The notes under the pieces: generated by a model
What the model was told of the DNA's origin: nothing
The model's input: the letters and a program-made list of their open reading frames with translations, nothing else
Databases searched by the model: none
Translations under genes and position numbers: made by a program
From: Rhodoferax sp.
GTDB taxonomy: Bacteria; Pseudomonadota; Gammaproteobacteria; Burkholderiales; Burkholderiaceae_C
Direction of reading: 5' to 3'
Length of the DNA stretch: 33,049 nt
Assembly (NCBI GenBank): GCA_028292305.1
Contig: JAQGMQ010000588.1
Coordinates: forward strand, 1-33,049
Shown: positions 3,486 through 33,045 of the stretch, one piece after another
Position numbering within the stretch: the stretch's first letter is position 1
How the letters are laid out: the number at the start of each line of letters is the position of its first letter

Positions 3486-4790
3486 TCACTTCGCCCCGGA
3501 GACGAAGGCCGGCGATGCGGGAGCGGCAGACACCGCGGTTCCAGACAGCGGCAACCCGGTCAGCGCCACGCCCTTGTCGTTGAAGATCCCGCCGCCAGCC
3601 GCCCACGTCACAGTCAGGCCAGATGCGTTGAAGGTGCCTGCATTGGCGAAGTTGCTGCCGCGGCCGATCCAGATGGAAGAACCCGACCAAGTGGTGTTGC
3701 CGGGGCCTTTTGACACGGATTCTGTGCCATTGCCGAACACGTTCTGGCTGATGGTCGAGCCGACATAGACGCCGCCCGTGATGGTCAGCACGCAGCCGTC
3801 TGCACACTCGACCCAGCGGCCTTCGTTGCTCTTGTTGTAGCCACCGATGACCGTGACCTTGCCAGAGCGGGTCTTGAAGTTGTTGCCGTGGTTGGATCCG
3901 TAGGTGTTGCAATTCTGGATCAGCACCGACTTCGCATCACTCAGATACGTGTCGTGCGAGCCGCCATCTGTCGAGTTGCCCACGAAATCGGACTGGTCGA
4001 TGATGATGTCGGCATTCGGCGCGTTGCTGAAAATGCCGTTCTGGTTGTTCCGGATCATCAGCTTGCGCAGCGTGACCGTGCCGCTGGCACCGTCCACATA
4101 GACGCCGGCCTGGCCGTCATGGTCGTTGACGGCCTTGGTGCCGCCGTCCTCAACATCAAGGTCATGCAGCGTGCCGGCGCTGGATAGATGCACGACGCCC
4201 TTGCCCCATGCCAGCCGCGTCTTGCAGGGACCGCCAGAACCCTGGTTGTTGTCGGACACGGTGCAGCCACCGGAACCTGACAGCTTCACGGTCGCCGCAC
4301 TAACGCCGCCGATGTCCCAACCATCCAAACCCGCAGGCACGTCGAACACTTGGGCGTATGTGCCGGCCGTTAGTGTCAATTTGAACCCCGGCGAGGCGCA
4401 GGCGAAGGACATGGCAATGTTGTCTTTCGGCGTCAGCGATAGCGTGGACCACTTGCCAACCTTACCGGCGCAGGGATCGGCCAACGCAACTGCCGCAGGA
4501 GATACAGCGCCGCCGGCCAGCAACGCTGCCACCTGCGCTTCGAGTGCGGTGATGCGGGCTGTGATAGGCGCGAGGTCGGCGGCAGCACCGTCTTTGCCGT
4601 TGGCGCCTGCGGGACCGGCAGGGCCAGCGACACCAGCAGGGATCGTCACAACCTGCGGGGCGACGGTGAACTTCTGCGCAGGTAGAGAGAAGTTCTGCGC
4701 CGGCAGTGTGATGGTCTGGCCTGGAACAGTGACGGTGGCGGCGGATACTGGGGCGGACAGCAAAAGCAAGCCCAGCAGAAGGCGGTTCAT
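3486..4790 (-). CDS. Secreted right-handed beta-helix protein with collagen-like segment and signal peptide
   Basis: MNRLLLGLLLLSAPVSAATVTVPG signal peptide; GVAGPAGPAGANGKDGAA; beta-helix rungs 'GTVTLRKLMIRNNQNGIFSNAPNADIIIDQSDFVGNST...KSVLIQNCNTYGSN'. ATG at 4790 has AGGA upstream (ORF open to GTG 4814). Confidence 0.78.
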   Translation of the reverse strand: MNRLLLGLLLLSAPVSAATVTVPGQTITLPAQNFSLPAQKFTVAPQVVTIPAGVAGPAGPAGANGKDGAAADLAPITARITALEAQVAALLAGGAVSPAAVALADPCAGKVGKWSTLSLTPKDNIAMSFACASPGFKLTLTAGTYAQVFDVPAGLDGWDIGGVSAATVKLSGSGGCTVSDNNQGSGGPCKTRLAWGKGVVHLSSAGTLHDLDVEDGGTKAVNDHDGQAGVYVDGASGTVTLRKLMIRNNQNGIFSNAPNADIIIDQSDFVGNSTDGGSHDTYLSDAKSVLIQNCNTYGSNHGNNFKTRSGKVTVIGGYNKSNEGRWVECADGCVLTITGGVYVGSTISQNVFGNGTESVSKGPGNTTWSGSSIWIGRGSNFANAGTFNASGLTVTWAAGGGIFNDKGVALTGLPLSGTAVSAAPASPAFVSGAK

Positions 4791-4810
4791 GGGCGAATTC
4801 CTGTGAAATG

Positions 4811-7800
4811 TCACTGCGGGCCAATGACGCCGTAGTCGATCGGCGTGAACCCGGTTGCCGCAGCCGCAGCCGTGCCGCCATCGGAGAAGTTGTAATTCTT
4901 CGTGGATGCGCTGACGAAGTTCGGATTGGCGACGTGCGGGCTGCTGTCAACGATGCTTCCCGCGTTGGGCAACGTGCCCGTCGTCTGGAAGTAGAGGTTG
5001 CCGCTGGTGGCTGGGTTCGTGACGGTCTGGCCGGCTGTGATGAAGTAGGCCCATAGGGTCGAGTTCGGGAACGTTGAGCGTCCGTTGTAGACGACGTTGC
5101 CTTGGAAGGTGTTTCCCGCCATGCCCAGGTTCGTCAGACCTTGGGAAACGACATCCTGATACAGCGCCATGTAGGCACGCGAGCCGGTCACGTCGATCAG
5201 GTTGTGTTCCACCACAAGATGGTCGCCACCGTGATATTGAAGCGGGATCGCGCTGTCGCCGGTCAAGATGTTGCGGCGCAGGATATAGGCCGATGCTTGG
5301 TCATCGAAATACACCTGCCGCGTGTCGCCTGACCCGGCATCTTCCAGCCAATTTTCTTCAATGATCGTTGGGTTAGCCGTGTCGCCATTGTGCCCGCGGT
5401 CGAGGAAGTAAATCATGCCGGTATCGTTGAAGCCCAAGTTGTTAGCACGACGGCAAATGTTGCGCCGGATCGTCATGGTCTTCAGGTATTCGACGTTGCT
5501 GCCGCCAACGAACGTGATGGATGGCCCAACGGTATCTTCAATAAGGTTGTTCGCGATCAGGTTGTGGTCGGTGCAGAACGAACCACGAATGCCACCTGTG
5601 GCACCTGCACCGCCCGATGTGTCACCCGTCACATAGCGGATGTGGTTGTTGGTGATGGTAAACCCGCTGATGGACGCGTTCTGGTATCCGTTCAACTGAA
5701 TTCCCGCTGTCACGGGATGCAAGATCGTCAAGCCGTTGATGGTGATGTTGGTGCAACCAGCGTCGAAATAGAGCGCGTTGGCGACGGTCCCGCCGAAGTC
5801 GAGGATCGGCACCTCGCCAGGATAGCGGGTTAGTTTAATGCCGTTGTCGCGCCACGGCACGAACTGGGCGTTGGTGGTGCGGGTCGGGTAGGTGCCGCCA
5901 CGGAAGCAAATCGTCTTGCGCGCACTGTCGCCGCCCACCGTATCCCGCGCCTTTTCAATGGTCAGGAACGGTGCCTCTTTCGTGCCGGCGGCGCTGTCGC
6001 TCCCGTTCGGCGCCACGAAGTAGGCATTGGCGTTCGTCGGCGCTGTCTCGCTGGCGCCGTTCGTGTTGCTGCTGTTGAGGGTAAAGGCGGTAGCCGTACC
6101 ACCGCTGCTGCCGGTCCCTATGGATTGCGTGAACGACTGGTACGACGAAACGACACGCCCAGCGGCGCCATCTTGGAAGCTGTAGAAACAGATGCCGTTG
6201 CCGCCTGCCAAGTTCTGAATAACGCTGTCGGTCAGAACGAAACTGGACGTGCCCACAAGCGTGCCCGCTGCGAAAGCCGGTGTGGCAGAATCCGTGGCAG
6301 TCCAAAGGCTGGTGGTGACTGTGGTGTGCGTCGCATCCGTCTGCACCGTATCCACCCGGAAGTCGTACCATTGGCCCGACGTGAACGACAGGTCGGAGCC
6401 TTGGCTGGTGCCGAACGCACCCGCTGACCACACCGTCGTCTTCAAAGGCGACGTGATAATCATCGTTGGGTTGTTATCGGCCCCGCTATAGCGCGAGATG
6501 ATGAACGGAATGACGTTGTCGAACATCACTGTGCGAATCTGCACGCGTGACGTGACGACCTGTTCGCCGGCTGCCTTGCGGACGATCTGACGTGTGACCC
6601 AGGCGTTCTCGCCAGCTACGCCGCCGACTTGCAGGAAGTTCTGTGCGGTCTGAGTCCATCTGCTGTTGGGATCTGTCCAACCTTGCCCGACGCTGCCCGG
6701 TGTATTGAGGGCGCCGCCTGTTCCGCTGTAAGTGGCAAGGGCGTTCCAGCCAGTGTTTGTTGGCGTTCCGCCGCCACCTCCCGTGGGTGTCCCGGTGCCG
6801 CCCGCGCTGCCGTCCTGCACCAGCAGGCCGTTTGCCGGCGGGTCATTCTCAGTGCCCGGTGTCGGGTCGCCTAGTCGCAGCAAATCGACGTTATTGATTT
6901 CGCCGCGCCATGCGCTGACTTCTTTGACGAGGAACGTCCAGCCGTCCGGTTCCAAAGCGGTTGGGTCAGGCGTGCCACCCTGCACGCCGCCATAGATGCC
7001 GTCGTTGTCCTGCGGGACCGTGCCATGTTCGATGTCGTACTGGTAGACGTTTACGGCTTGGTTGCCGAGGATGAGGTGCATACCCTGCTTGCGGGTGACG
7101 CCTGTTACCGGATCCACAATGTCTGGGGCTTGGTCGTATTCCATGTACGCCGTTTGGAAGACTTTCGCGCCAAGGCCCGGCACGATCTCCAGGAAGTCGA
7201 TCAGATTCGAGCCGTCGCCGCGCCAGTTGCAATAAATCGTGCGGTCCTGCGTCGTCGCGTCAACCGGTGACACGTTATAGAAATGATCGTGGGGATCGCG
7301 TGAGAACCCGTTTGAGCGGCTGTCGAAAGGCCGATCGGGCCGGCGTCCGGTCCAGACCACGCCGTATTGGCCTTGGCCGCTGTCCGAAGCGATCACCTGC
7401 GTTGCCAAGTGCTTGCCGTGCGGCACCTGATAATCGACCAAGCTGTACTGGTCGTTTACGTCGATCTCGAACTCGTGCCCGTAGGTGGGGAATTCGAACA
7501 GCGACCGGCCATTCGGCTGGGCGTATGGGTCGGTCGTTCCGAATTGCAACGGAGTACGCTGTTCGCCGGAATAGTACCAGATGGGTTGCCAGCCATGCAC
7601 GCCCTTGCCAATCCGGTAGACCACTTTCAACAGCGTGCCGGGACGGAAAGACTGCGGGAAGCGTGCCACGGCAGCCCAGATATAGCCCGGCGCCACCTTG
7701 GTGCGGTTCTCCGCAGACATGGCACTGAGATGCCAGCCGTTCGGTTTCACCCTATGCAGGTCGTTGAAATGGTCGGGCGGGAAGTGACGGCCGCGCGCCC

Positions 7801-8983
7801 AAAATACCTGACCGCCTGAACTGTGCCCCGTGGATACATCGAGGTCGAACTGATTGTTGGGGTTGCCAGTGATGTAGTGGTAATGCGCGATGTTGCGCGC
7901 CTTGGCCGACGTGTCGATGTTGCCGCCTGCGCCGAACGTGTAGGAAAACATCTGCGTCGCGCCGGCCTTGAGCGTGATCCCACCGCCCGGTGTGGCATCA
8001 GAGCGGGTCAGGCCAACGTCGTCTGTCGGATAGTTCGGCGTTGTCAGCATGCCGACAACGGTCTGGTCAGAAGCCGGCGTTGGAATGTAGCTGGACGGCC
8101 CGACCGTGGCTGCAACGACAGAGATGCCATACCGCGCCGACTTGGCTGCGTTCATGGCGTTCATTTGTGTGACAGACGGCGCACCTGCCGACAGTTCGAA
8201 AACGGCGAAGTCCATCTTGCCGTTGTTGAACCAACAGTAAGCCGTGGGCGCCGTCACAAAGCCGCCCGCGTTGACGTCAACCGGCGAGGTAAAGGTCAGG
8301 ACGCCATTGCGATACAGCCGATAGAAATGGCCATCGCAGACGATGTTGATGATTTCCCAAGTGTTCAGGACGGCCAAGCCATTGGAGGCTTCGGTGTAAT
8401 GCAGGTCTACATTCCCCTGCGAGAAATAGATTACGCTGTCGGTTCGGGACGGAACCGTGAAATAGTTATTGGTTCCGCCACCTGATGCCCCGTATTCGCA
8501 CTTCAATATCTGTCCGTCTGCATCACCATCAGTGCGGGGATTCAAGGCATTGTGCCGGCCTACAATCGTTGCCATCCACGGCGCGTTATTCGGCCCCCAA
8601 TGGGAGATGACCGCATCCGGTGGGATCGGCAGGCCATCCCAGCCGCTGTTATACGAGAGCGTCGGGTGCGACCGGAAATACGGGAAGTTGTTCGGGCCAC
8701 CGTTGGCGATCCAGCGCAGAGCGCCGTACGAACCGATGCTGGCGCGATCGCTGACGATCTTTTGCACCGGCTCGCAGACCACCTGCACGGAGTTGGCCCC
8801 GCCGCTGGGATCCGTGAAAAGCTGAATGCCGGCCACGCCATTCGCCGGCCGATTGCTGGATGTCGGCAGGTTCGCGTCGAACGACATCTGCAAGCCGGGC
8901 GCCTGAGCGCCAGAACTCACCGACAGGTTCGCCGCTGCGACAATCGGCGGGGCCGTGAAGAACCCGATAGGAAAGGGCAGCAT
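4811..8983 (-). CDS. Large tailspike: LamG-like N-terminal module, central beta-jelly-roll-like modules, right-handed parallel beta-helix C-terminus
   Basis: 1390 aa from MLPFPIGFF (ATG 8983, TAATG overlap). C-terminal 'NAYFVAPNGSDSAAGTKEAPFLTIEKARDTVGGDSARKTICFRGGTYP...NITINGLTI...NASISGFTITNNHIRYV...NLIANNLIED' is pectate-lyase-like beta-helix. Confidence 0.82.
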   Translation of the reverse strand: MLPFPIGFFTAPPIVAAANLSVSSGAQAPGLQMSFDANLPTSSNRPANGVAGIQLFTDPSGGANSVQVVCEPVQKIVSDRASIGSYGALRWIANGGPNNFPYFRSHPTLSYNSGWDGLPIPPDAVISHWGPNNAPWMATIVGRHNALNPRTDGDADGQILKCEYGASGGGTNNYFTVPSRTDSVIYFSQGNVDLHYTEASNGLAVLNTWEIINIVCDGHFYRLYRNGVLTFTSPVDVNAGGFVTAPTAYCWFNNGKMDFAVFELSAGAPSVTQMNAMNAAKSARYGISVVAATVGPSSYIPTPASDQTVVGMLTTPNYPTDDVGLTRSDATPGGGITLKAGATQMFSYTFGAGGNIDTSAKARNIAHYHYITGNPNNQFDLDVSTGHSSGGQVFWARGRHFPPDHFNDLHRVKPNGWHLSAMSAENRTKVAPGYIWAAVARFPQSFRPGTLLKVVYRIGKGVHGWQPIWYYSGEQRTPLQFGTTDPYAQPNGRSLFEFPTYGHEFEIDVNDQYSLVDYQVPHGKHLATQVIASDSGQGQYGVVWTGRRPDRPFDSRSNGFSRDPHDHFYNVSPVDATTQDRTIYCNWRGDGSNLIDFLEIVPGLGAKVFQTAYMEYDQAPDIVDPVTGVTRKQGMHLILGNQAVNVYQYDIEHGTVPQDNDGIYGGVQGGTPDPTALEPDGWTFLVKEVSAWRGEINNVDLLRLGDPTPGTENDPPANGLLVQDGSAGGTGTPTGGGGGTPTNTGWNALATYSGTGGALNTPGSVGQGWTDPNSRWTQTAQNFLQVGGVAGENAWVTRQIVRKAAGEQVVTSRVQIRTVMFDNVIPFIISRYSGADNNPTMIITSPLKTTVWSAGAFGTSQGSDLSFTSGQWYDFRVDTVQTDATHTTVTTSLWTATDSATPAFAAGTLVGTSSFVLTDSVIQNLAGGNGICFYSFQDGAAGRVVSSYQSFTQSIGTGSSGGTATAFTLNSSNTNGASETAPTNANAYFVAPNGSDSAAGTKEAPFLTIEKARDTVGGDSARKTICFRGGTYPTRTTNAQFVPWRDNGIKLTRYPGEVPILDFGGTVANALYFDAGCTNITINGLTILHPVTAGIQLNGYQNASISGFTITNNHIRYVTGDTSGGAGATGGIRGSFCTDHNLIANNLIEDTVGPSITFVGGSNVEYLKTMTIRRNICRRANNLGFNDTGMIYFLDRGHNGDTANPTIIEENWLEDAGSGDTRQVYFDDQASAYILRRNILTGDSAIPLQYHGGDHLVVEHNLIDVTGSRAYMALYQDVVSQGLTNLGMAGNTFQGNVVYNGRSTFPNSTLWAYFITAGQTVTNPATSGNLYFQTTGTLPNAGSIVDSSPHVANPNFVSASTKNYNFSDGGTAAAAATGFTPIDYGVIGPQ

Positions 8984-10680
8984 TATGCGAAGCCCTTGCT
9001 CAACACGCAGTTCAGCGTCGTGCCGTTGACCGTCGATGCGGTGAGGATATCGACCGCGCCCGCAGCGGTGCTCAACGTCGGCACGGTGCCGCCCTGCCAC
9101 TTGAAGGCGGACCCGTATGCCAGAGTGCGGCCACCAGTGCCGTCCTGCGTGATGGTCCACTGGTAAGTCGCGCCCGCAGCAATGCCGGTCGGGTTCGATA
9201 GGGTCGCGTTCGTGCCCAGCGTGAGGGCAAACATGTTTTGCGCTGATACGTCGGTCGCAATCGTGGCGCCTGACGTCAGTGTGGTCAGGCCCTTGTTGAT
9301 GTCAGCGCGCGACACCGACAACGTGCCGTCACCCGCGATGGCAACGCCGCTGCCCTGCTTCACGCCACCAACCACGCTGGACGTTGCGATGACCGGCGCG
9401 AAGGTGGTGGGCTTGCCGCTGATTGATGTCCAGGCGGGCGTGTAGGCCGAAATCGCCGTGGTGACGTTGGCAGCCGTCTGATACCCGGCGCTGTTGGCAG
9501 CGTCGTAAGCACCCAAGGCAGCCCGCGCGAGTGCCGCCGTGGTGCCGCCTGTGCCGCCCGACGCGATCGGGAGTGCGGTGCCAAGGGTCAGCGTCGTGAA
9601 CGCGCCAGTGCCCGGCGTGGTGCCGCCGATGGGGCCGGGGGCCGCTAGCTTGGTGGTCAGGTTCGCTGCTGTCTGGAAGCCGGCCGGGTTTGCTGCGTCA
9701 TACGGCGTGAAGCCGAGAACCCCGGTCACGTCCGCAGTTACCAAGGTGACGGCGCCCGTCCGACCTTGGAATGTGGAGACGCCCGACGTGCCCGTGGCGT
9801 TCAACGTGCCGTCGCCCAGAACGGTCAGGCCAGTGCCAGGCTTCACGCCGCCAATGACAGAAGATGTCGCGGGCGGGAGCGTGTAGGCAGCCGGGATCGT
9901 CGGCTTGCCCGAAAGGTCCGCATAGGCGCCCGAGGTCGCGATCGTGGCGAACGTCGGCTTGCCGGAAATGCTGCCCCATGCTGGCGCGTATCCACCCAGC
10001 GCGGCCTGCACCTGCGCGGCGGACTGGAATCCGGTGGGGTTGGAGGCATCATACGGCGTGTAGGACAACGCGCCCGTCACATCGCCGGCAGTTAGCACGA
10101 CGGTGCCGCTGCGGGTGTTGAAGGTAGAAACGCCTGCCGACTGCCCGCCCGTCACGCCGGAAATCGTGCCGTCGAGCGCGATGCTGATGTTGGTGCCAGC
10201 TTTGACGCCGCCCAACACGGTCCCGCTCGCTGCCGGCAAGACGTAGGCACTCGGGATGGTCGGCTTGTTCGTCAGGTCGGCGTAGCTGCCCGTGGTGGCG
10301 ACAGTGGCCAGCGTCGGCAGCGTTGGGATCGTCGGCTTGTTGGTCAGGTCCAGATACGAGCCGCTGAACTGCGTTGGGCGCCCAGTGAGGTCGGCATACG
10401 CGCCAGTGCTAGCCACGGTCGAAAGCGTGGGCTTGCCCGACAGATCGGCATACGCGCCGCTGAAGATCACGATGGTGCGCGGCGACCAATTGGTGCCGTT
10501 GAACACCATGTATTGGCCGCTGGTCGCGCCGCCCGGCTGGATGTCGGTTGGCGTGGTCTGCGAGACGATCTGGGCAACATTGATATTGCCGTTTACCGAG
10601 CCATCGTCACCAAGCATCGTGACATTGCGGGCTGGCGTGAGCGGGCTAAGGCCGGTCGGGAAGGTGGTGGTGCCGCTCAT
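8983..10680 (-). CDS. Repetitive tail fiber protein
   Basis: 565 aa; recurrent [SG]-Y-[AL]-D-L-[ST]-[GN]-KPT and GFTPYDA.NPAGFQ modules; C-terminus typical of phage fibers (TLTSGATIATDVSAQNMFALTLGTNATLSNPTG). Confidence 0.83.
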   Translation of the reverse strand: MSGTTTFPTGLSPLTPARNVTMLGDDGSVNGNINVAQIVSQTTPTDIQPGGATSGQYMVFNGTNWSPRTIVIFSGAYADLSGKPTLSTVASTGAYADLTGRPTQFSGSYLDLTNKPTIPTLPTLATVATTGSYADLTNKPTIPSAYVLPAASGTVLGGVKAGTNISIALDGTISGVTGGQSAGVSTFNTRSGTVVLTAGDVTGALSYTPYDASNPTGFQSAAQVQAALGGYAPAWGSISGKPTFATIATSGAYADLSGKPTIPAAYTLPPATSSVIGGVKPGTGLTVLGDGTLNATGTSGVSTFQGRTGAVTLVTADVTGVLGFTPYDAANPAGFQTAANLTTKLAAPGPIGGTTPGTGAFTTLTLGTALPIASGGTGGTTAALARAALGAYDAANSAGYQTAANVTTAISAYTPAWTSISGKPTTFAPVIATSSVVGGVKQGSGVAIAGDGTLSVSRADINKGLTTLTSGATIATDVSAQNMFALTLGTNATLSNPTGIAAGATYQWTITQDGTGGRTLAYGSAFKWQGGTVPTLSTAAGAVDILTASTVNGTTLNCVLSKGFA

Positions 10681-20125: not shown

Positions 20126-21481
20126 TTACGACAAGCTATAGGAAAGAGTTCCGCTAATGTTTGCGGCATGGATCGCGCCCGCCAGGCGTGCGGTGAATGA
20201 GATGTCGTTCAGCACGCGGTTGGCCTTGTCGTTGAACGACACGTCAGCCGACAGCGGCAGAGACAGCGTGTAGCTGCGGATGATGCGGTTGCTGCTGTCG
20301 AGTTCCTCCGGCGCGATGCCGCCGCGGGCCACGCCCTGATCCAGCGCACCGCGAACCATCGCGCCGACCATGCGAATGCCCACGTCATCGTAGGGAATAC
20401 GGTTGTCCACCATCAGGCCGAACACGCGCACCTTGATCTCTTCTTCCAGCCAGTCGCGGAAGCGAATCACGTCGATCCACTCGCCGCCTGCCACGCGGCC
20501 GTTCTGTGTGATGGCAACGTTCCTGAAGCTCTCGAACGTGTTGCCGTTCTTGTTGAACACGTTCAGGGCGGTGCCTTCGGCCAGCACGTCGGCGTTGATC
20601 GCGGCCAATTCCTGATTGGCCCACGTCTCTTGGCCGGGGTATTTGGTGAACGATTTCGACATGATCGCCGCCTCGGGGAAGTCGCTGACGGCGAGCGGGT
20701 GATACCACCACGCGGTGCGGAAGAACTGGCCGTTCTTGAGCAGATATCCGGTGTCGGTGATGCTGCCGCTGTTGGCCGCGTTGATGTCGGCCACGGAGGT
20801 GACGAACAGCTTCTTCGCGGCTTCGGCCCAGGCGGCAACGGCCAGCACGGTGGCCTGCGTGCGATCGGGCACCACCAAGCCATACCAGCCGTTATTCGCG
20901 CTCTTGCAGGCTGCCAGGGCGATCGTGGCTGTCTCGGTGACGGTCTTTGCACCAAGCGTCAGGTTCGTGGTCACAGGCTTGACGCTGAACGCAGCGCCAC
21001 TGGTGTTGGGCGCGATCTTCAGCGAGCCGGAAACGTTGGTGCCGGTGAAAGGAACGCCAGCGTTGCCCATGGCTGCAATCAGGCCAGTGACGACACCCGA
21101 CGCGCCGGCAACCGTGGCGGTGAAACTGACCGCTGCCGTGGTGGCGCTGCCGTTGACGTTGTAGCCCATGAGCATGCTGAACGTGTCGCCGGCGTTCACG
21201 CTGCCTGGCACGTTCAGCGTCACGTCATCCACCGACTGGCGTCCGATGAACACCTGCCGCACGCATGGGGTCTGCGAGAACGCATCCCGCACGGCCAGAT
21301 ACATCGGGTCATTCTCGTCCATACCCAAGTCCAGCAGATCGTCGGGGCTGGTCACGACCATCACGCGGGCGAGGTCCAGAACGTGCGGGCCGAACACCAT
21401 CATATCGCTGAACGACTGCTGCGCGATCGCTGTCGTGCGCAGCGCAATCGTTACATTAACGATGCGGTCAATGTTGGCCAT
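20126..21481 (-). CDS. Contractile tail sheath protein (DUF3383-like)
   Basis: MANIDRIVNVTIALRTTAIAQQSFSDMMVFG...; 'WYGLVVPDRTQATVLAVAAWAEAAKKLFVTSVAD'; start ATG at 21481. Confidence 0.87.
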   Translation of the reverse strand: MANIDRIVNVTIALRTTAIAQQSFSDMMVFGPHVLDLARVMVVTSPDDLLDLGMDENDPMYLAVRDAFSQTPCVRQVFIGRQSVDDVTLNVPGSVNAGDTFSMLMGYNVNGSATTAAVSFTATVAGASGVVTGLIAAMGNAGVPFTGTNVSGSLKIAPNTSGAAFSVKPVTTNLTLGAKTVTETATIALAACKSANNGWYGLVVPDRTQATVLAVAAWAEAAKKLFVTSVADINAANSGSITDTGYLLKNGQFFRTAWWYHPLAVSDFPEAAIMSKSFTKYPGQETWANQELAAINADVLAEGTALNVFNKNGNTFESFRNVAITQNGRVAGGEWIDVIRFRDWLEEEIKVRVFGLMVDNRIPYDDVGIRMVGAMVRGALDQGVARGGIAPEELDSSNRIIRSYTLSLPLSADVSFNDKANRVLNDISFTARLAGAIHAANISGTLSYSLS

Positions 21482-21998
21482 TGGTAATAATCTCCACGGT
21501 GACGTGCGCAGGAATGGAGGTGCTGACACCGCCGGTTATGGTGCCGTCGATGTTGACGGTTTCGATCAGGCCCACGTCGTCGGTGCTGGCCTGTAGGCGC
21601 CGAATGCCAATTTCGAGCATGCCGCGTGGTTCGTGGAATGCCGTGTCAAGTAGCGCCGTGATGTTCTGCACACCGCCGTGGTCCAGCACCGCAAGATTGA
21701 GCCGCGTGGCCACGTCGATGGTGGTCTGCCAGCGCAGGCGTTGCTTCAGCGTCTCCAACAGATCCACAGCGCCGACGCCGTAGCATTGGATTTCCAGCAC
21801 CACTTCGCGGTGGCTGCGGACAAGCTGAAACCCCGCCTCGTCCACGGGTTCGTAAATCTCGTGTTCCGGCCCGGTGCTGGTGCCCAAGCGTAGCGCCATG
21901 AACGGCTTCACCGGCTGCGGTGCGTCTTGCTCTGCCCACACGACGGCACACCCGGCAGCGGGCGCTACCAGGGCATACACGTCAGCAGCGAAGGGCAT
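21468..21998 (-). CDS. Tail terminator / neck protein (LIC_12616-like)
   Basis: Start MPFAADVYALVAPAAG at 21998 (TAATG overlap); position between neck and sheath genes. Confidence 0.68.
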   Translation of the reverse strand: MPFAADVYALVAPAAGCAVVWAEQDAPQPVKPFMALRLGTSTGPEHEIYEPVDEAGFQLVRSHREVVLEIQCYGVGAVDLLETLKQRLRWQTTIDVATRLNLAVLDHGGVQNITALLDTAFHEPRGMLEIGIRRLQASTDDVGLIETVNIDGTITGGVSTSIPAHVTVEIITNGQH

Positions 21999-24406
21999 TA
22001 TGCGGGTTCCAGGGCTGCCAGATAGCGGTAGTGGTCGATCGACATGCCGCCCAGCCACCGCGCCACGCCGACCACTCGGTAACGTTCCTGGGTGCCGTAG
22101 ATCAGCGGCGGATACAGCACGATGTCGCCGGGTTGGTAGGTGGTTGAACCGTTCGATGTCACGGCGCTGCGGGGATCAGCGATATACAACTCGGTTCCGG
22201 TGTAGACCCGGATCATGCGGGATACGCGGTCGCCGCCGAACTCCGCGTGAATGCGGTCATAGTCGGCTATCGTGGCGGGTTGGATCGTGGCGCTGATCGG
22301 GATGGTGATTTCAGCGCCTGGCACCCATACGCCGTCTATGTAAAGGCCCGGTTGCTGGCGAATGACCGAGTGTGGGCGCCGGAAAGACGTGCCAGTGCCG
22401 ATCGTCGGTCGTGAGCCACCAAGACGGGTGCCTATGGCAGATACCGTGGCCGCACCAGCAGCCGTGCCGCTGGCCGCTGCTATGACCGCCGCCGGCCTAC
22501 CCGATGCGGTTGCAAACCCGACAGCCATGGCCACAGCCGACGCTGTAGCTGCTCCGACGCTGATTGGTGCGCCAGCACCTGCCGCAGTCGCAACGCCACT
22601 CGCAACCGACAAACCAACGCCAGCAGCCGAACTTGACCCGGCAGCCGTGCCAACCCCGGCACCGGTTGCCGCCGTAATGGAGAAACCATCCACCGAAGCT
22701 AGGCCGTCTGACGTTGCCACAGCAGGAGCTAGCCCAACGCCAGCAGCCACCGCCGTGCCAGCGCCGGCAGAAACGGCGACACCAACCGACAAGGCAATGC
22801 CTGCGGCCAAGGCTGCGCCGAAGCCCGCGCCGGCAAAATTGCTGTTGGCCGCTGACCTACCCGTGGCTGAAGCCGCGCTTGAACCCGCCGCCGTGGCGAT
22901 GTTACCCGGCGTGAAGGCAACAGCCGAAGCTGTGCCGACGCCGGTAGATGTGCCGACAGACGCCGCAATCGCCCCGCCTGCGCTGGAAGTGGAAGCAGCC
23001 CCCGTTGCTGTTGCCACCGACTGTGCGGCGCTTGACGCAACGCCTGCGACTGCACCCGTGCCTGTGGCACTGGACACGGCCTGTGATGTCGCAGCACCAG
23101 CAGCGGCTGCCGCGCCAGCACCGGCTGAAGTAGCTGCGGATTGAGCGATCGACCCGCCGACAGCGACAGCCGAGCCGACGCCAGATGACGTGCCCGTCGT
23201 TGTACCGAACGAAAGGGCGGCGGTTGCCAAAGCAGAGCCAGAACCAGCCGCAATGCCGGCTGACGCCGTTGTCGCCTGACCCGTTGCCGCGGCATTGCCT
23301 GCGCCTGCGGATGTCGCACCGCTTGACGCTGTAGCCATACCGGTTGCGTTAGGCGTGCCTGCACCTGCCGACGTGCCTGCTGCGTTTGCAACTGCGTTAC
23401 CTGTTGATGCCGCCGCGCCAGATCCCGCCGACACGCCTGCACTGGAAGCGAGCGCCTGCCCGACAGCCAGCAATCCGCCGACACCGGCCGAAGTGGCGAC
23501 GCTAGAACCGATCGCAGCGCCGGTAGCAACCGCTGTGCCTGCCCCGGATGATGTGGCAGATCCTGCCACCAGCGCCCGCCCAGTCGCGGCAACTGCGCCC
23601 GCGCCTGTAGTGCTGGCGACCGATTTGCGGAGGGCAGAGCCAGCGCCCGATACAGCAGCAGATCCGGCAGAAGTTCCAACGGCGTTGGAAACGGTAGCAG
23701 CCTGCGCCGTGCGCCGCACTTGCACCGGGCGCAGGATGGCATACGGGTTCTGATTGAGGGCGAAAATTTCCGCCGATGACAGCGCGCGGTTATACCAAGC
23801 GACGCAAAGAACCGAGGTTGGACTGTTAAACCCGTCCTGTAATCGCCCGATATTGACGTTCGCTGTCGGCGTTCCGGAGTTCGATATAGACCCGTCCGCA
23901 ACCCCATCCACGAACATACTGAGCGAGGTGCCGTTGTCGGTTAGAACGACGGATTGCACGTTGCCGAAATTAATCGGAACGGCGCCGCCGAATTCCCGCC
24001 CGGTGCCGTATTTGTCGATCCCATAGACATTCGGCGCATTGTAATTAGCGAGAACGCGGACGCCGTAGAAGTCAAGATAGCCCGTTGTTGCGGCTGTGCT
24101 AACCGGGATATGGCTTAAAAACGCGGTGTAAGGTGCGCCAGGCGCTGCCGTCGTGACGGTGGCGCCAACCGTCCCTGCACTGGAAAATGAGATCGCCGCG
24201 CCGGCCTGTGTCGGAACCGATATCCCACCGGAATTTACGAACGGAAGGTTAACCCCAGCCAGGTCTTTGCCGCCAGATGCTGCTGGCAGGTAAAAACTGA
24301 CCAACCCGCGAGCAAGCGGGTGTGTCCAATCAATCTCTACGCGGCCAGTCGGGACTTGCCCTGCAACCCAAAGCCCCGGCGACCGATGCGCGTGGATGCG
24401 CGCCAT
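21998..24406 (-). CDS. LamG-like domain + Gly/Ala/Ser 20-aa repeat region + C-terminal head-closure/neck-like domain
   Basis: 802 aa. N-terminus 'YLDFYGVRVLANYN...QSVVLTDNGTSLSMFVDGVADGSISNSG...NIGRLQDGFNSPTSVLCVAWYNRALSSAEIFALNQNPYAI' is LamG/concanavalin-like; middle is GAG.A.ATG.A...S repeat; C-terminus 'LYIDGVWVPGAEITIPISATIQPATIADYDRIHAEFGGDRVSRMIRVYTGTELYI...YQPGDIVLYPPLIYGTQERYRVVGVARWLGGMSIDHYRYLAALEPA'. Confidence 0.82.
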   Translation of the reverse strand: MARIHAHRSPGLWVAGQVPTGRVEIDWTHPLARGLVSFYLPAASGGKDLAGVNLPFVNSGGISVPTQAGAAISFSSAGTVGATVTTAAPGAPYTAFLSHIPVSTAATTGYLDFYGVRVLANYNAPNVYGIDKYGTGREFGGAVPINFGNVQSVVLTDNGTSLSMFVDGVADGSISNSGTPTANVNIGRLQDGFNSPTSVLCVAWYNRALSSAEIFALNQNPYAILRPVQVRRTAQAATVSNAVGTSAGSAAVSGAGSALRKSVASTTGAGAVAATGRALVAGSATSSGAGTAVATGAAIGSSVATSAGVGGLLAVGQALASSAGVSAGSGAAASTGNAVANAAGTSAGAGTPNATGMATASSGATSAGAGNAAATGQATTASAGIAAGSGSALATAALSFGTTTGTSSGVGSAVAVGGSIAQSAATSAGAGAAAAAGAATSQAVSSATGTGAVAGVASSAAQSVATATGAASTSSAGGAIAASVGTSTGVGTASAVAFTPGNIATAAGSSAASATGRSAANSNFAGAGFGAALAAGIALSVGVAVSAGAGTAVAAGVGLAPAVATSDGLASVDGFSITAATGAGVGTAAGSSSAAGVGLSVASGVATAAGAGAPISVGAATASAVAMAVGFATASGRPAAVIAAASGTAAGAATVSAIGTRLGGSRPTIGTGTSFRRPHSVIRQQPGLYIDGVWVPGAEITIPISATIQPATIADYDRIHAEFGGDRVSRMIRVYTGTELYIADPRSAVTSNGSTTYQPGDIVLYPPLIYGTQERYRVVGVARWLGGMSIDHYRYLAALEPA
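22430..23690 (-). repeat. Degenerate approx. 60-nt (20-aa) tandem coding repeat, Gly/Ala/Ser-rich
   Basis: Successive 20-aa blocks: SVATSAGVGGLLAVGQALAS / SAGVSAGSGAAASTGNAVAN / AAGTSAGAGTPNATGMATAS / SGATSAGAGNAAATGQATTA, continuing with small length drift. Boundaries approximate. Confidence 0.8.
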
Positions 24407-24409
24407 GGG

Positions 24410-24844
24410 TTAAATTGACTGCTCGCCGTAGCGATACAGGCTGCAAACCGAAGTGCTGGTGGCAGGCAAGGCGACGCCTAGGTTGTTCTGGATGACGATC
24501 TTGAACTTGCCCGGCGTCAGGATCAGCCCTTGCACTTGCATAAACTGGATGCTGCCGCCAGCAAATGACCCCGTTCCGCGAAGATAGGACGAACCCGGAT
24601 TGCCCGCCGACGCGACATAGTTGCCAGTGCCGACGTTGGGGATAATGAACACCGACAGGAAAGCCGGGGCCACCGACGTTACCGCAGACGATAAGGCTAG
24701 CTCTAAATCACCGTAGAGATACAGGCCGGTGCTGTTATCGATTTCAGCCCCGTAGGCATATGCGCCGTTGGCGAGCGCGTTCATGGTCGCGCCTGCGACG
24801 GCAGTATCCGCGGTGTTGTATACCGTCCACTTCGAAACCGTCAC
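24410..24844 (-). CDS. Hypothetical phage structural protein, beta-rich
   Basis: 144 aa, 4-nt start/stop overlap with the upstream gene. Confidence 0.7.
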   Translation of the reverse strand: MTVSKWTVYNTADTAVAGATMNALANGAYAYGAEIDNSTGLYLYGDLELALSSAVTSVAPAFLSVFIIPNVGTGNYVASAGNPGSSYLRGTGSFAGGSIQFMQVQGLILTPGKFKIVIQNNLGVALPATSTSVCSLYRYGEQSI

Positions 24845-25775: not shown

Positions 25776-26240
25776 TTACCGCTTGCCGCGCTGCACGACG
25801 TAGCGGATGGCATTCACCATGCGGCTGTGGTCGATCAAGGGCGTGGCGCTGCGTTTCAGCTTGATGGTCAGCGGCGAGTTGGGCACCCACGGCCCATCAC
25901 GCAGCACGCGCTTTTGCATGTCCTGATACCAAGTGCCGACCACACCCAGGCAGCGCATCGCCGTGCCGCCGCGCAAGATGCCCTCGTACGCCGCCATGGC
26001 CACCTGATGAAGCTGGCCGCGGTAATTGTCGGCCATTCTGCGGAAAAACGGGCGGGAAGGAATGTGTTCGGTGCCAAACTCGTTGTAGATCGCCACGTCC
26101 ACGATCGCGGTGCCGTTGTCTTCCTCGCCGGCATCGGTCTGGATGCCAACCTTGATCGAGCGACCATCAAGTTGGCGGATCTCGGCCATGATGCGGCGGT
26201 GCCCGTGATCGACGGTGCGGGTGTGGCCCCTTAGAGCCAT
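25776..26240 (-). CDS. Head/tail completion protein, HK97 gp10-like
   Basis: 'VKVGIQTDAGEEDNGTAIVDVAIYNEFGTEHIPSRPFFRRMADNYR'-type EFGT...IPxRPFxR motif (ORF reads IKVGIQTDAGEEDNGTAIVDVAIYNEFGTEHIPSRPFFRRM). Start may be internal MAEIRQ at 26189. Confidence 0.78.
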   Translation of the reverse strand: MALRGHTRTVDHGHRRIMAEIRQLDGRSIKVGIQTDAGEEDNGTAIVDVAIYNEFGTEHIPSRPFFRRMADNYRGQLHQVAMAAYEGILRGGTAMRCLGVVGTWYQDMQKRVLRDGPWVPNSPLTIKLKRSATPLIDHSRMVNAIRYVVQRGKR

Positions 26241-26686
26241 GGGAAGCTGCTCAATCGACAGCTACCCAACGCCGGCCGTGGCGTGCGCGCCAGGATCGCA
26301 CCGTATCCCATCAGCCGGGCAATCGCGTCGTATCTCGCTTTGTAATTGCCACTATTGGCCGTCACCGCACTGCTGGTGCTGGTGCTTGTGGTGCCACCGG
26401 TTGCCGGGGAGTATTGGCGCGTCAGATCACCCTCTTTTTCGAGGATCAGAACGCCACCGGCCGTTGGTCCCGTCGTGCTGCTGGTGCTGCCAGCCACGCC
26501 GCCGATGCCCTGCGCGGAGAGAACCCACGCGGCATACAAGGCGGTCGCTTCGTCAATCTTGTGCTGCGGCATATCCCAAGCGGCCGTTTCCAGACTGCCT
26601 AGGTATAGCGCCGCTGCAATGTTGCCCGCCGACTTGTCTGCCAGTTCGGGAGCGAACAAGGTCAACAAGTCGGCAGGCGTTAGCAT
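26231..26686 (-). CDS. Head-tail connector/adaptor (DUF4054-like)
   Basis: 151 aa; 'LFAPELADKSAGNIAAALYLGSLETAAWDMPQHKIDEATALYAAWVLSAQ' typical DUF4054-like; follows capsid gene. Confidence 0.75.
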   Translation of the reverse strand: MLTPADLLTLFAPELADKSAGNIAAALYLGSLETAAWDMPQHKIDEATALYAAWVLSAQGIGGVAGSTSSTTGPTAGGVLILEKEGDLTRQYSPATGGTTSTSTSSAVTANSGNYKARYDAIARLMGYGAILARTPRPALGSCRLSSFPWL

Positions 26687-28388: not shown

Positions 28389-29519
28389 TTATTCCTTCGT
28401 CTGGCCAAGGCGACGCGAGATGTAGGCGGCGCGGGCCTCGGCCGCCGACATGCTGCCGCTCTTGCCGCTGTTGCCTGCGTCCTGACGCTGACCCGGCCTA
28501 CCGGTGCCACCCGTGTTGACCTGCTGGCGCTGGCTGCCGGCAGAATCCTGACGCTTCACGCCATCTTCCACCGCAAGGTCATAGGCCGCCGAAACGTAGT
28601 CGGGCGACTTGCCGGTAAGGTCCAGCGCATCGCCGCGCACCTTGCGGATGACCGCCACTCGCAGATCGTGATCGGTGCTGCCGGTGGCCACGGTGACGCC
28701 CAGAGCGGTGGCCTTGGCTTCCATGTCCATGCGGGCGCGCACAACGCCCACGGCATCGGCACGCACCTTGGCCAGTTCTGCTTCGTGGTTCACCTTGGCG
28801 GTGTCCAGCGCAGCCTTCGTGCTGTCGGCGGTGGCGGTGGCAGCGTCGGCGCGGCTGACCGCGGCGGCGAGGTCGGCTTGCAGCTTCGTTACGGCATGCA
28901 CCACTTCCGGCGCCGCCTTATAGGTGATGCCGGTGTCCAGACGAACATCGGCCAGTTTTTCGTCTGGCATGGTGACAGTATCTCCGGGGGTGAAATCGGC
29001 TAGGGTTACGTCAGCGGCATCGAGGTTGAGGCGGCTCACACCCGCCCTTCCTTTCCGCACGATCGCAAGGTGATTGATTCTCGGTTTGCGCTGGATCGCG
29101 TCGTATTTCAGCCCATTCCACTCGCCGGGCGTTTCTTCCAGTTCGACCGAATAACCGAGAGACAGTTCGGTCAGGCCGTCATCGACTGCTGTGGTGTCGT
29201 AAATCATGACATCACCCAGCGCGTTGTCGCCGTCCTGCCGCCCTTGGCTTAGAAGTGAACCAACAACGTGTTGCTTGGCGTTCTTGGAGTGAACCATGCC
29301 GGGATGGCCGACAGTGATTGGCTTGCCCAAGTAGCTGGCAAGGCTGTCGGCGTGGAACACTTCTTCCGGCAGGCGCAATTCGCGCCGCGTTTTGCCGGTG
29401 ACAGGGTCGCGATAGTCGAACACGCCGACGCGGGTTAGGATCGGAGTGTCGCTGATGTAGCCCTCCGGCGTACGCACCGCTCGCATAGCGGTGACATCGT
29501 AACGGCTGACTTGATCCAT
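28389..29519 (-). CDS. DUF2213-like capsid maturation protease with coiled-coil, scaffold-like C-terminus
   Basis: 'MDQVSRYDVTAMRAVRTPEGYISDTPILTRVGVFDYRDPVTGKTRRELRLPEEVF' N-terminus; coiled coil 'TKLQADLAAAVSRADAATATADSTKAALDTAKVNHEAELAKV'. Start at ATG 29519 with GAAAGG upstream. Confidence 0.82.
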   Translation of the reverse strand: MDQVSRYDVTAMRAVRTPEGYISDTPILTRVGVFDYRDPVTGKTRRELRLPEEVFHADSLASYLGKPITVGHPGMVHSKNAKQHVVGSLLSQGRQDGDNALGDVMIYDTTAVDDGLTELSLGYSVELEETPGEWNGLKYDAIQRKPRINHLAIVRKGRAGVSRLNLDAADVTLADFTPGDTVTMPDEKLADVRLDTGITYKAAPEVVHAVTKLQADLAAAVSRADAATATADSTKAALDTAKVNHEAELAKVRADAVGVVRARMDMEAKATALGVTVATGSTDHDLRVAVIRKVRGDALDLTGKSPDYVSAAYDLAVEDGVKRQDSAGSQRQQVNTGGTGRPGQRQDAGNSGKSGSMSAAEARAAYISRRLGQTKE

Positions 29520-29538
29520 TGGGTCGCCTTTCGGGCAT

Positions 29539-29560
29539 AAAAAAGGGCACCGAAGTGCCC
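29539..29560 (-). terminator. Rho-independent terminator, GGGCAC-UUCG-GUGCCC followed by six U on minus strand
   Basis: Plus strand aaaaaa gggcac cgaa gtgccc; on the minus strand a perfect 6-bp GC-rich stem with C(UUCG)G tetraloop then TTTTTT. Confidence 0.85.
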
Positions 29561-29585
29561 ATTTCCGCGCCATATCGTCAGCCTG

Positions 29586-30780: not shown

Positions 30781-32140
30781 AGGCCGCCGCTGCCGCCGCC
30801 GTGTCGATCGGCGCCTCCAGATCGTATTCGCCACGCTTGGTCAGGTCAGCGCGCACTTCGTCAGGCGTGATGGCACCTGCGGTGGCGTAGGTTTCGGCTG
30901 CGGCGGCTTCGGCTTGCTTCGCCTGGGCACGGGCCAGTTTCGCCTTCGCTTGCTCCGCTTCAGACGGCAGCCACAAAGGATGGAACTTGACCGCCCACTG
31001 ATTTGGCCTGGCGCCGGCAAATGACACCTGGGCCAGCACCAAAGCGATCAGGCGTTCCAGGGCAGGACGCACGTCATTGCGTTGCACGTGGTCAACAATG
31101 CGGAAGTAGCCCGCGGTGTCATTGTCGCCAGTGCTGTTCAGGCCGCTGGGAGATGTGCCGAACAGCGCCGTAACCGGGAAGCCGGTATCAGCGCAGATCG
31201 CGGTCTGGCTGTCTTTAATCGCGTCGGTCACACCCATCAGGGAGAGGTCTTTGACCTCGTAACTGTCGCCACCCACGCCGCCTTCGCCGCCGTCGATCAC
31301 CACGGTGTTCAACACGCTGCGCGCCATGTCCACCCGGTCGATCCGGGCAGATACGCGGTCATCCATGCCGGCAGCCAACAGCGCGGCTAGACCTTCCATG
31401 GTGAAGACCGCCTGCTGTTTCCGTTCCAGCATCCGTTCGGTCCACGCCATCGCGGCATCGTAACGCATGATGGATTCATAGCAGCCGTCCAGCGCACCAC
31501 GACCGCGGAAAGGCACGCCACCGAAGCGGGTTCGGGTCAGGCGGCGCGGCAACGGGTCGCCGCTGAAGACGATCAGGCGGCTTTGATGCACGCGGAAGTA
31601 GCCGCCAGTGTTCGGGCTGCGCACGTCATAGAACTGCGGCTCGTCATAGTTTGCCGCTTTTGGGTCGGTGTAGGTCAGGCCGATGGGCACCGTCAGGTCG
31701 GTGACGTCGAACACGCGCAGTTCGGTGATCAGACCCAGTGATAATTCGTTGATCGGGTATTCTAGGCTGTCGGCGCCGTCTTGGGTAATCAGCAGGATGA
31801 CTGACCCACCGAACAGACGCGACCACCGCAAGGCTTCGGTGATGCGCTGGCCGACCTGTAAGCGGTCCAGTTCGTCACCGATGGCGTTTTTCACGTCGCC
31901 CTCGATCTCATAGCCGCGGGCCAGAGCGTCATCGGCCGGCATGTCCACGATGCGAGCAGCCACACCACTACTGTAGTACAGATCACTGATCTGATCGGCC
32001 AGTTTCATGGCGTCGGTATTGCGAAACCGCGTCGTGCGGTCCATGGCGGGGTTGTTCAGACCACTGGCGCCGTTGCCATAACCTGCCCGGCGGAAGCTGT
32101 TCAGCACCGCCCCAATCAGGCCGTCAAAGCGACCAGTCAC
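30764..32140 (-). CDS. Phage portal protein (DUF1073 / Phage_portal_3-like)
   Basis: 458 aa directly after TerL; 'DQISDLYYSSGVAARIVDMPADDALARGYEIEGD', 'WSRLFGGSVILLITQDGAD' typical of this portal family; position in head module. Confidence 0.88.
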   Translation of the reverse strand: MTGRFDGLIGAVLNSFRRAGYGNGASGLNNPAMDRTTRFRNTDAMKLADQISDLYYSSGVAARIVDMPADDALARGYEIEGDVKNAIGDELDRLQVGQRITEALRWSRLFGGSVILLITQDGADSLEYPINELSLGLITELRVFDVTDLTVPIGLTYTDPKAANYDEPQFYDVRSPNTGGYFRVHQSRLIVFSGDPLPRRLTRTRFGGVPFRGRGALDGCYESIMRYDAAMAWTERMLERKQQAVFTMEGLAALLAAGMDDRVSARIDRVDMARSVLNTVVIDGGEGGVGGDSYEVKDLSLMGVTDAIKDSQTAICADTGFPVTALFGTSPSGLNSTGDNDTAGYFRIVDHVQRNDVRPALERLIALVLAQVSFAGARPNQWAVKFHPLWLPSEAEQAKAKLARAQAKQAEAAAAETYATAGAITPDEVRADLTKRGEYDLEAPIDTAAAAAAYAEEA

Positions 32141-33045
32141 GATGATAGGGCCTCGAAGCGGCTGCGATAATCCAGCTTCATGCCCAACATGCTGAACGCC
32201 CGCGAGAGTGCATCAACCTGATCGTCCTTTGATCCACCGGGGAATGACGCGAGTTCGTCAATCAGTTTGTGGCACCAGTCATTGCCGCCAACCACAGACA
32301 GGTTGCCGACGTTGGCCTGTGCCGCCATCGGTGCAGCCCGCGTCACCTTGTCGCCGGTTTCCGTGCTGGATTCGACGCGGAAGCCTTGCAGCTTGCGGGT
32401 CAGGTAAAGCACCTGCGTCTTGCCGGCCTGTCCTGGGTCTTGCGGCAAGCCGATGCGGACGGATAGGCCATCTCGCTTGGCCGTGTTCACGATGGTGGCT
32501 TCAACCTCATCAGGGCCGCCGCGCACACGCACGACATCCAACACGATGAACCGGCCTTCCGCCGTTCGCATCAGCTTGATGCCGGCAGTCCAGTCGGGAT
32601 CGCGTGTGCCAATTTGTTTGGTCGCGGCCAAGTCCCAGGCCCGCACAACCTGGCCGGTAACGGCGGGCGCGGCCTCCAGCGTTTCCACCATTCCAATCTT
32701 GAACAACGACCCTTCGGCGTTCGTGGGCTGCTGCTGATACAGCGCCGACCAGTCACGCATTGCGCCGGATGCTTCGGCTTCGGCGTAGGCTGCACGGAGT
32801 TCTTTCCCGTAACCGTATTTGGGGTCTTTATCCCAAAGCCATTCGCCCGGCTTGCGGCCAAGCGGGTCATTATCTCCCGCAATGGCAGGGATCGACACCA
32901 CACGCCACAAGCCCGGCTGTCGCTCCAATAGACGCCCGCCAAGGTCGTCCGGGTGCCAGCGTGTCATAACAACCACCACACCAGCACCGGGCTTCAGGCG
33001 GGTGCGGAGGTCTGCGGTGAACCAGTTCCACTGGCTTTCGCGCAC
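32137..33045 (-). CDS. Phage terminase large subunit, C-terminal (nuclease) part; 5' end truncated by window edge
   Basis: Translation has TerL-like 'VVVVMTRWHPDDLGGRLLE', 'SALYQQQPTNAEGSLFK', 'RAWDLAATKQIGTRDPDWTAG', 'KDDQVDALSRAFSML'. Frame stays open to the window end, so the ATPase half is outside. Confidence 0.93.
   Translation of the reverse strand: MRESQWNWFTADLRTRLKPGAGVVVVMTRWHPDDLGGRLLERQPGLWRVVSIPAIAGDNDPLGRKPGEWLWDKDPKYGYGKELRAAYAEAEASGAMRDWSALYQQQPTNAEGSLFKIGMVETLEAAPAVTGQVVRAWDLAATKQIGTRDPDWTAGIKLMRTAEGRFIVLDVVRVRGGPDEVEATIVNTAKRDGLSVRIGLPQDPGQAGKTQVLYLTRKLQGFRVESSTETGDKVTRAAPMAAQANVGNLSVVGGNDWCHKLIDELASFPGGSKDDQVDALSRAFSMLGMKLDYRSRFEALSS

Follow-up and report, generated by a model that had tools for sequence, protein, structure and literature searches.

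A LamG-tipped repeat stalk fused to a head-closure homologue: a candidate neck whisker in a contractile-tailed phage

In the E217 virion, six copies of the stopper gp28 lie below the dodecameric adaptor (PMC10329688). In phage 812, the stopper gp97 forms a hexamer whose N- and C-termini touch the outer decoration proteins (PMC12886913). The stopper N-terminus of E217 and R4C is a helix that lies against the adaptor and aids adaptor binding (PMC10329688, PMC10276861). The neck can also carry carbohydrate-binding modules (CBM). In a 936-type lactococcal phage, the CBM of the neck passage protein binds host cells, weakly, and TpeX is a CBM fused to a tail ring protein, added to the end of the major tail protein through a programmed frameshift (PMC6669499). 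The carbohydrate-binding module of the A-1(L) neck fibre failed to bind the host (PMC10966104). Taken as analogues, these precedents point both ways on ligand binding by neck modules. In phage GP4, chain g of 8JOU is described as a fibril that joins the adhesin to the tail nozzle collar (PMC13243795). Neck whiskers are already known, and in the cases compared here they are separate proteins hooked to the collar or adaptor.

The window analysed here is a whole contig of 33,049 bases from an uncultured source; the genome bin consists of 958 contigs. Its minus strand carries the virion module of a contractile-tailed phage. One part of the module encodes the large terminase, portal, head morphogenesis protein, protease, major capsid protein, adaptor and Neck1. 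The other part encodes an 802-aa fused ORF, the tail terminator, a DUF3383 sheath, a structural protein in the DUF3277 slot, a chaperone, the tape measure protein and baseplate proteins (Table 1). The large terminase gene is truncated by the contig edge, and the remaining stretch (32137-33045) covers only the C-terminal part of the family. Thus, the phage genome is incomplete. The stop codon of the fused ORF shares one base with the ATG of the tail terminator (TAATG), and the preceding gene ends 3 nt ahead of the ATG of the fused ORF, which places it within a tightly packed operon. The position of the two small genes before the fused ORF suggests that they may be further parts of an appendage cassette. 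Downstream of the tail-fibre genes, an ORF of 1449 aa (4811-9160) and one of 442 aa (3486-4814) matched no Pfam or PHROG family.

Table 1. Features of the neck region and of the fused ORF, with positions in the window
Feature	Position	Strand	Basis or remark
Head maturation protease	28389-29573		phrog_530; upstream of the fused ORF
DUF4054 head-tail adaptor	26231-26686	(-)	phrog_302, E=6.7e-6; PF13262 below cut-off; AAM37 has an annotated adaptor in the same slot
Neck1 / gp10-like tail-completion protein	25776-26240	(-)	phrog_222, E=6e-38
Gp80-like protein (GP4 fiber I family), 142 aa	25324-25752	(-)	PF23140, phrog_240, 8jou_a
Small gene, up to 156 aa	24841-25311	(-)	without Pfam or PHROG match
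Small gene, 144 aa, directly upstream of the fused ORF	24410-24844	(-)	no Pfam match; marginal PHROG of unknown function
Complete fused ORF (LamG, 20-residue-repeat stalk, stopper domain), 802 aa	21998-24406	(-)	
LamG (concanavalin-A-like) domain, residues 70-214	23765-24199	(-)	Pfam PF13385
Ala/Gly/Ser/Thr stalk of degenerate 20-residue repeats, residues ~231-665 (~435)	22412-23716	(-)	autocorrelation
Head-closure (stopper, Hc1) domain, residues ~666-802	21998-22411	(-)	phrog_939, alignment, PDB profile matches
Tail terminator	21468-21998	(-)	phrog_7975, E=2.2e-30; PF23961, E=3.8e-18
DUF3383 tail sheath	20126-21487	(-)	phrog_205, E=1.8e-103

The original prediction described a LamG-like domain, a long Gly/Ala/Ser repeat and a neck-like domain joined in one reading frame, and each of these elements was recovered. 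The frame runs uninterrupted for 802 codons from the ATG at 24406 to the TAA at 21998, with no stop or split. Each of the other five frames along the ORF contains 13-27 stops, and the codon preference of the ORF frame exceeds that of both other same-strand frames in all 80-codon blocks. A Pfam search with the N-terminal part by itself assigns residues 70-214 to Laminin_G_3 (PF13385; E=8e-7, 29.8 bits; cut-off 27.6); the same search with the whole ORF finds no match. The LamG part had zero tblastn relatives in 50,697 phage records, and neither the LamG part nor the sheath picked out a relative in the genome contigs scanned. The stalk consists of 33% Ala, 18% Gly and 15% Ser. Its self-identity is 0.296 at a lag of 20 residues and 0.281 at a lag of 40, and the maximum of shuffled sequences is 0.257 (n=200). 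Since the repeat copies are only ~62-78% alike in DNA, the repeat is old and not a recent or assembly-made expansion. Single-sequence AlphaFold2 runs on the stopper domain and the stalk separately gave a pLDDT of 33-34 (33 for the stopper).

The C-terminal domain had been called a head-closure or neck protein by eye, and profile searches now give this call a firm basis. Residues 674-800 align with positions 12-119 of 126 of PHROG 939 ('head protein'; E=1.6e-15). The same PHROG is matched by the stand-alone homologues of POR1, MiCath, phiEt88, AAM37 and D'Alembert, two of whose records use the gene name "head closure". In an alignment of nine sequences (A2), the window domain included, all five invariant columns are kept in the window protein. 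The A2 profile matches the PDB chains 9mt4_E (7.6e-14), 9zbs_Y (1.4e-13) and 9c39_E (4.1e-12), and the matched chains are titled 'Head-closure protein' and 'Head-tail joining protein'. Neck chains of Phi92, PhiTE and Pam3 are matched more weakly. As a lone query, the window domain found no PDB neck protein, so its link to the solved structures goes through the family profile, which includes it. By homology, the C-terminal ~135 residues are a complete head-closure (stopper) protein. The predicted position, between the gp10-like gene and the tail terminator, is correct in one respect: the gene lies after the adaptor and Neck1 and directly before the terminator, as the stopper does in relatives. 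It does not adjoin the gp10-like gene, because three accessory genes are inserted after Neck1. Neither the window nor the genome bin contains a second stopper or head-closure gene; within the window, such a gene would have spoken against the original prediction.

The stand-alone homologue of about 130 aa, expected at the same locus in relatives, is present as a protein of 114-152 aa in eight related annotated phages. In six of them (POR1, MiCath, phiEt88, MII_001, DIBBI and AAM37) it occupies the same slot, and D'Alembert and Ab3 have it in a related gene order. In the six phages the capsid gene is followed by small genes and then by adaptor, Neck1, stopper (114-152 aa), terminator and sheath; these roles come from the annotation, a PHROG match or the position. 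Genomes sampled from the class, order and phylum contain 15 further PHROG 939 loci, whose open frames are 113-155 residues long. At a sixteenth, weak locus (G1158) the frame is 255 residues long. We rejected it as a second fusion, since this is a stop-to-stop count and a gene of normal length with its own start lies within it. The sole long frame among the PHROG 939 loci of the sampled genomes is that of the window (803 codons). Its stopper domain has no tblastn relative across 200 related genomes.

The explanation that we consider reasonably probable is that the ORF encodes a neck whisker, anchored through fusion to the stopper hexamer and present in six copies. The last ~135 residues would fold as an ordinary stopper, and the hexamer would have the DUF4054 adaptor ring on one side and the tail terminator on the other. 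The ~665 preceding residues would exit the ring at the N-terminus of the domain and project outwards from the neck, forming a repetitive stalk with the LamG lectin-fold head at its tip. Each virion would then carry six whiskers, for which the neighbouring Gp80-like protein is possibly a partner. The whiskers would probably add weak, multivalent attachment to a surface glycan. The three segments, the continuity of the frame, the domain identities, the gene slot and the lack of a separate stopper start can be read directly from the DNA, and the fused ring domain points to the neck as the location of the predicted whisker. We infer the hexamer and the outward exit by analogy with solved relatives: since the stopper termini of phage 812 reach the outer decorations, an N-terminal extension can exit the neck on the outside. 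The N-terminal helix of the E217 and R4C stoppers counts against an easy fit, as a bulky extension would have to leave the adaptor contact free. The exact LamG-stalk-stopper fusion is known from one sequence, which also counts against the whisker. We suppose that the chain enters the virion at full length, without cleavage, and likewise that its LamG domain might bind sugar. An anchor of this kind would set the copy number at six and link lectin-fold display to the completion of the head. It would be a simple architecture for placing binding heads on the neck rather than on the baseplate.

The Gp80-like protein is a candidate partner of the appendage. It matches PF23140 (E=3.2e-13, above the cut-off) and phrog_240 (E=3.8e-15), and a profile of its relatives matches the GP4 chain 8jou_a (E=7.4e-8). 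Chains a and g of 8JOU are probably the same protein, judging from a table that gives the sequence ten chains. The Gp80-like protein also matched 8fre_A; we rejected this match because the target is a repeat protein and the alignment is a short stretch that recurs. Members of the Gp80/fiber I family occur in 363 phage records, of which 286 are mycobacteriophages, and are mostly annotated as 'head protein' or hypothetical. The present locus offers a lead on the role of this widespread, poorly understood family. In RXM, Lacusarx, Mae-JY04 and ctIqW946, which have close relatives of the window's Gp80-like copy, the Gp80-like gene is followed by the gene of a large Ala/Gly/Ser-rich protein with an N-terminal globular region. 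The 20-residue period is significant in the window and in Mae-JY04, and also at a Mu-like locus of one genome (G135) and at a locus of another (G525). The stalks of RXM and Lacusarx have no clear period of this length, and the periodicity of the short stalk in ctIqW946 does not exceed shuffles. For G135 and G525, the gene order places the Gp80/stalk pair between adaptor or closure genes and tail genes, and the repeat of their stalk proteins has no convincing Pfam match. These strong 20-residue repeats (L041:5707-7230 in G135, L042:4043-4828 in G525) adjoin Gp80-like genes, and the phages or prophages that carry them differ in other respects. None of the repeat-stalk proteins beside Gp80-like genes in the compared phages is fused to a stopper. 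The stalk pairing is not universal: the Gp80-like genes of Pam2 and ctuNt529 have other neighbours.

A parallel fusion was found in the unrelated siphophage ctIqW946 (MW202657). There, the Gp80-like gene comes after those of Ad1, Hc1 and Neck1 and is followed by a gene (L035:6387-8027) that encodes a protein of 546 aa with an Ala/Gly/Ser stalk and a C-terminal tail-terminator domain (residues 419-544; phrog_179, E=1.4e-8). A second, similar terminator domain lies in front of the first, and the two are 28% identical (E=1e-8). With such a duplication, three chains could make a six-domain ring. As in the window, the Gp80-like gene lies upstream, and an N-terminal globular region is followed by an Ala/Gly/Ser stalk and a C-terminal neck-ring domain. 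Unlike in the window, the ring protein is the tail terminator, apparently duplicated, and not the stopper, and the N-terminal region is not recognised as LamG. As a single analogous case, ctIqW946 supports the attachment of stalks to the neck through fusion. It is possible, although we put this forward only tentatively, that a Gp80-like protein and a repetitive stalk protein form a modular neck cassette in which the C-terminus of the stalk is repeatedly fused to the neck ring protein encoded next. If so, cassette fusion would be a general means of placing a fixed number of adhesive whiskers on the neck.

Three other readings of the long frame have to be weighed, and each seems less likely to us than a neck-anchored whisker. 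A real stalk gene and a separate stopper gene could have been merged by a sequencing or assembly error, or their junction could have decayed. The bin is fragmented and comes from an uncultured source, the fusion has no second example, and an alternative frame is closed by a TAG at codon 658, ten codons ahead of the stopper domain. However, the in-frame repeat pattern can be followed to residue ~655, and the stopper domain starts at ~667 without a change of frame, which leaves ~12 codons in which an indel would have to lie. The stopper would still be left without a start codon. The DIBBI and AAM37 proteins begin M-IGNGPFNKFRKDH and the window reads SRP-T-IGTGTSFRRPH, so that codon 668 (ACG, 22403-22405) is aligned with the start Met of these Dibbivirus homologues. 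The closest in-frame ATG upstream of the domain is codon 627, within the stalk and without a ribosome-binding site. An artefact thus requires two independent errors, which makes it highly improbable. The loss of a single stop as the origin of the fusion was considered as well and dropped, because the nearest stop before the domain is out of frame and a shift would also be required. None of the in-frame starts around the junction has a ribosome-binding site, and the junction is read in one frame; therefore, a separate stopper is not obviously made. There is a slight chance that one is started from the ACG at codon 668. The slimmest chance, in our view, is that the fused protein only decorates the neck, as an accessory, and that the working stopper is encoded in the phage genome outside the contig. 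The break inside the large terminase gene would allow this, but the fused ORF is found in the canonical stopper position, directly ahead of the tail terminator, the examined relatives have one stopper in that slot, and the bin holds no other match.

Another explanation is that the 802-aa chain is a polyprotein and that a cut near residue 660 separates a LamG-stalk fibre from an ordinary stopper. The fibre would then need a different attachment, such as the Gp80-like protein, as in unfused relatives. A head maturation protease is encoded upstream, and the stalk is a separate protein in relatives. However, there is no evidence of a cleavage site, and the 1:1 production of fibre and stopper would bring no clear gain. 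Prohead proteases are also normally active within the procapsid, ahead of neck addition. We therefore consider cleavage unlikely. The remaining alternative contests the function and not the architecture: the whisker would be real but mechanical, serving tail-fibre attachment or retraction like T4 fibritin, or neck reinforcement, instead of glycan binding. Such a role has been proposed for T4-type whiskers, the decorations of phage 812 are thought to stabilise the neck (PMC12886913), and the A-1(L) module failed to bind its host (PMC10966104). On the other side, LamG is commonly a binding fold, and the 936-type module does bind host cells, if weakly. We regard a purely mechanical whisker as somewhat unlikely.

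The anchored whisker can finally be set beside the known systems. The stoppers of the DUF3383 myophages POR1, phiEt88, DIBBI and AAM37 (POR1_10, phiEt88 gp13, DIBBI gp14 and AAM37 gp14) resemble the window domain in their match to phrog_939, in the retention of the whole domain and in their slot between Neck1 and the tail terminator. They are proteins of 114-152 aa with their own ATG, whereas in the window the domain follows a lectin-stalk of 665 residues. E217 gp28 has the same role as that predicted for the window stopper domain, seen in a solved virion. The R4C adaptor with its peripheral Ig-like domain and the 812 stopper with its external beta-sandwich carry an outward extra domain, as the window protein would (PMC10276861, PMC12886913). 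Unlike the window's extension, these domains are small and close-packed, without a stalk or lectin, and that of R4C is thought by its authors not to serve adsorption (PMC10276861). As analogues, the lactococcal 936/TP901-1 neck passage structure and TpeX resemble the predicted whisker, which may likewise place carbohydrate-binding heads on stalks at the neck. The neck passage protein differs in having its own N-terminal collar domain and the opposite polarity. GP4 podophage fiber I (Gp80, PF23140, 8JOU) has a homologue encoded three genes upstream of the fused ORF. The GP4 fibre is built from several separate proteins, whereas in the window the stalk is covalently part of the stopper; what would be new here is that the DNA-retention ring itself serves as the anchor.
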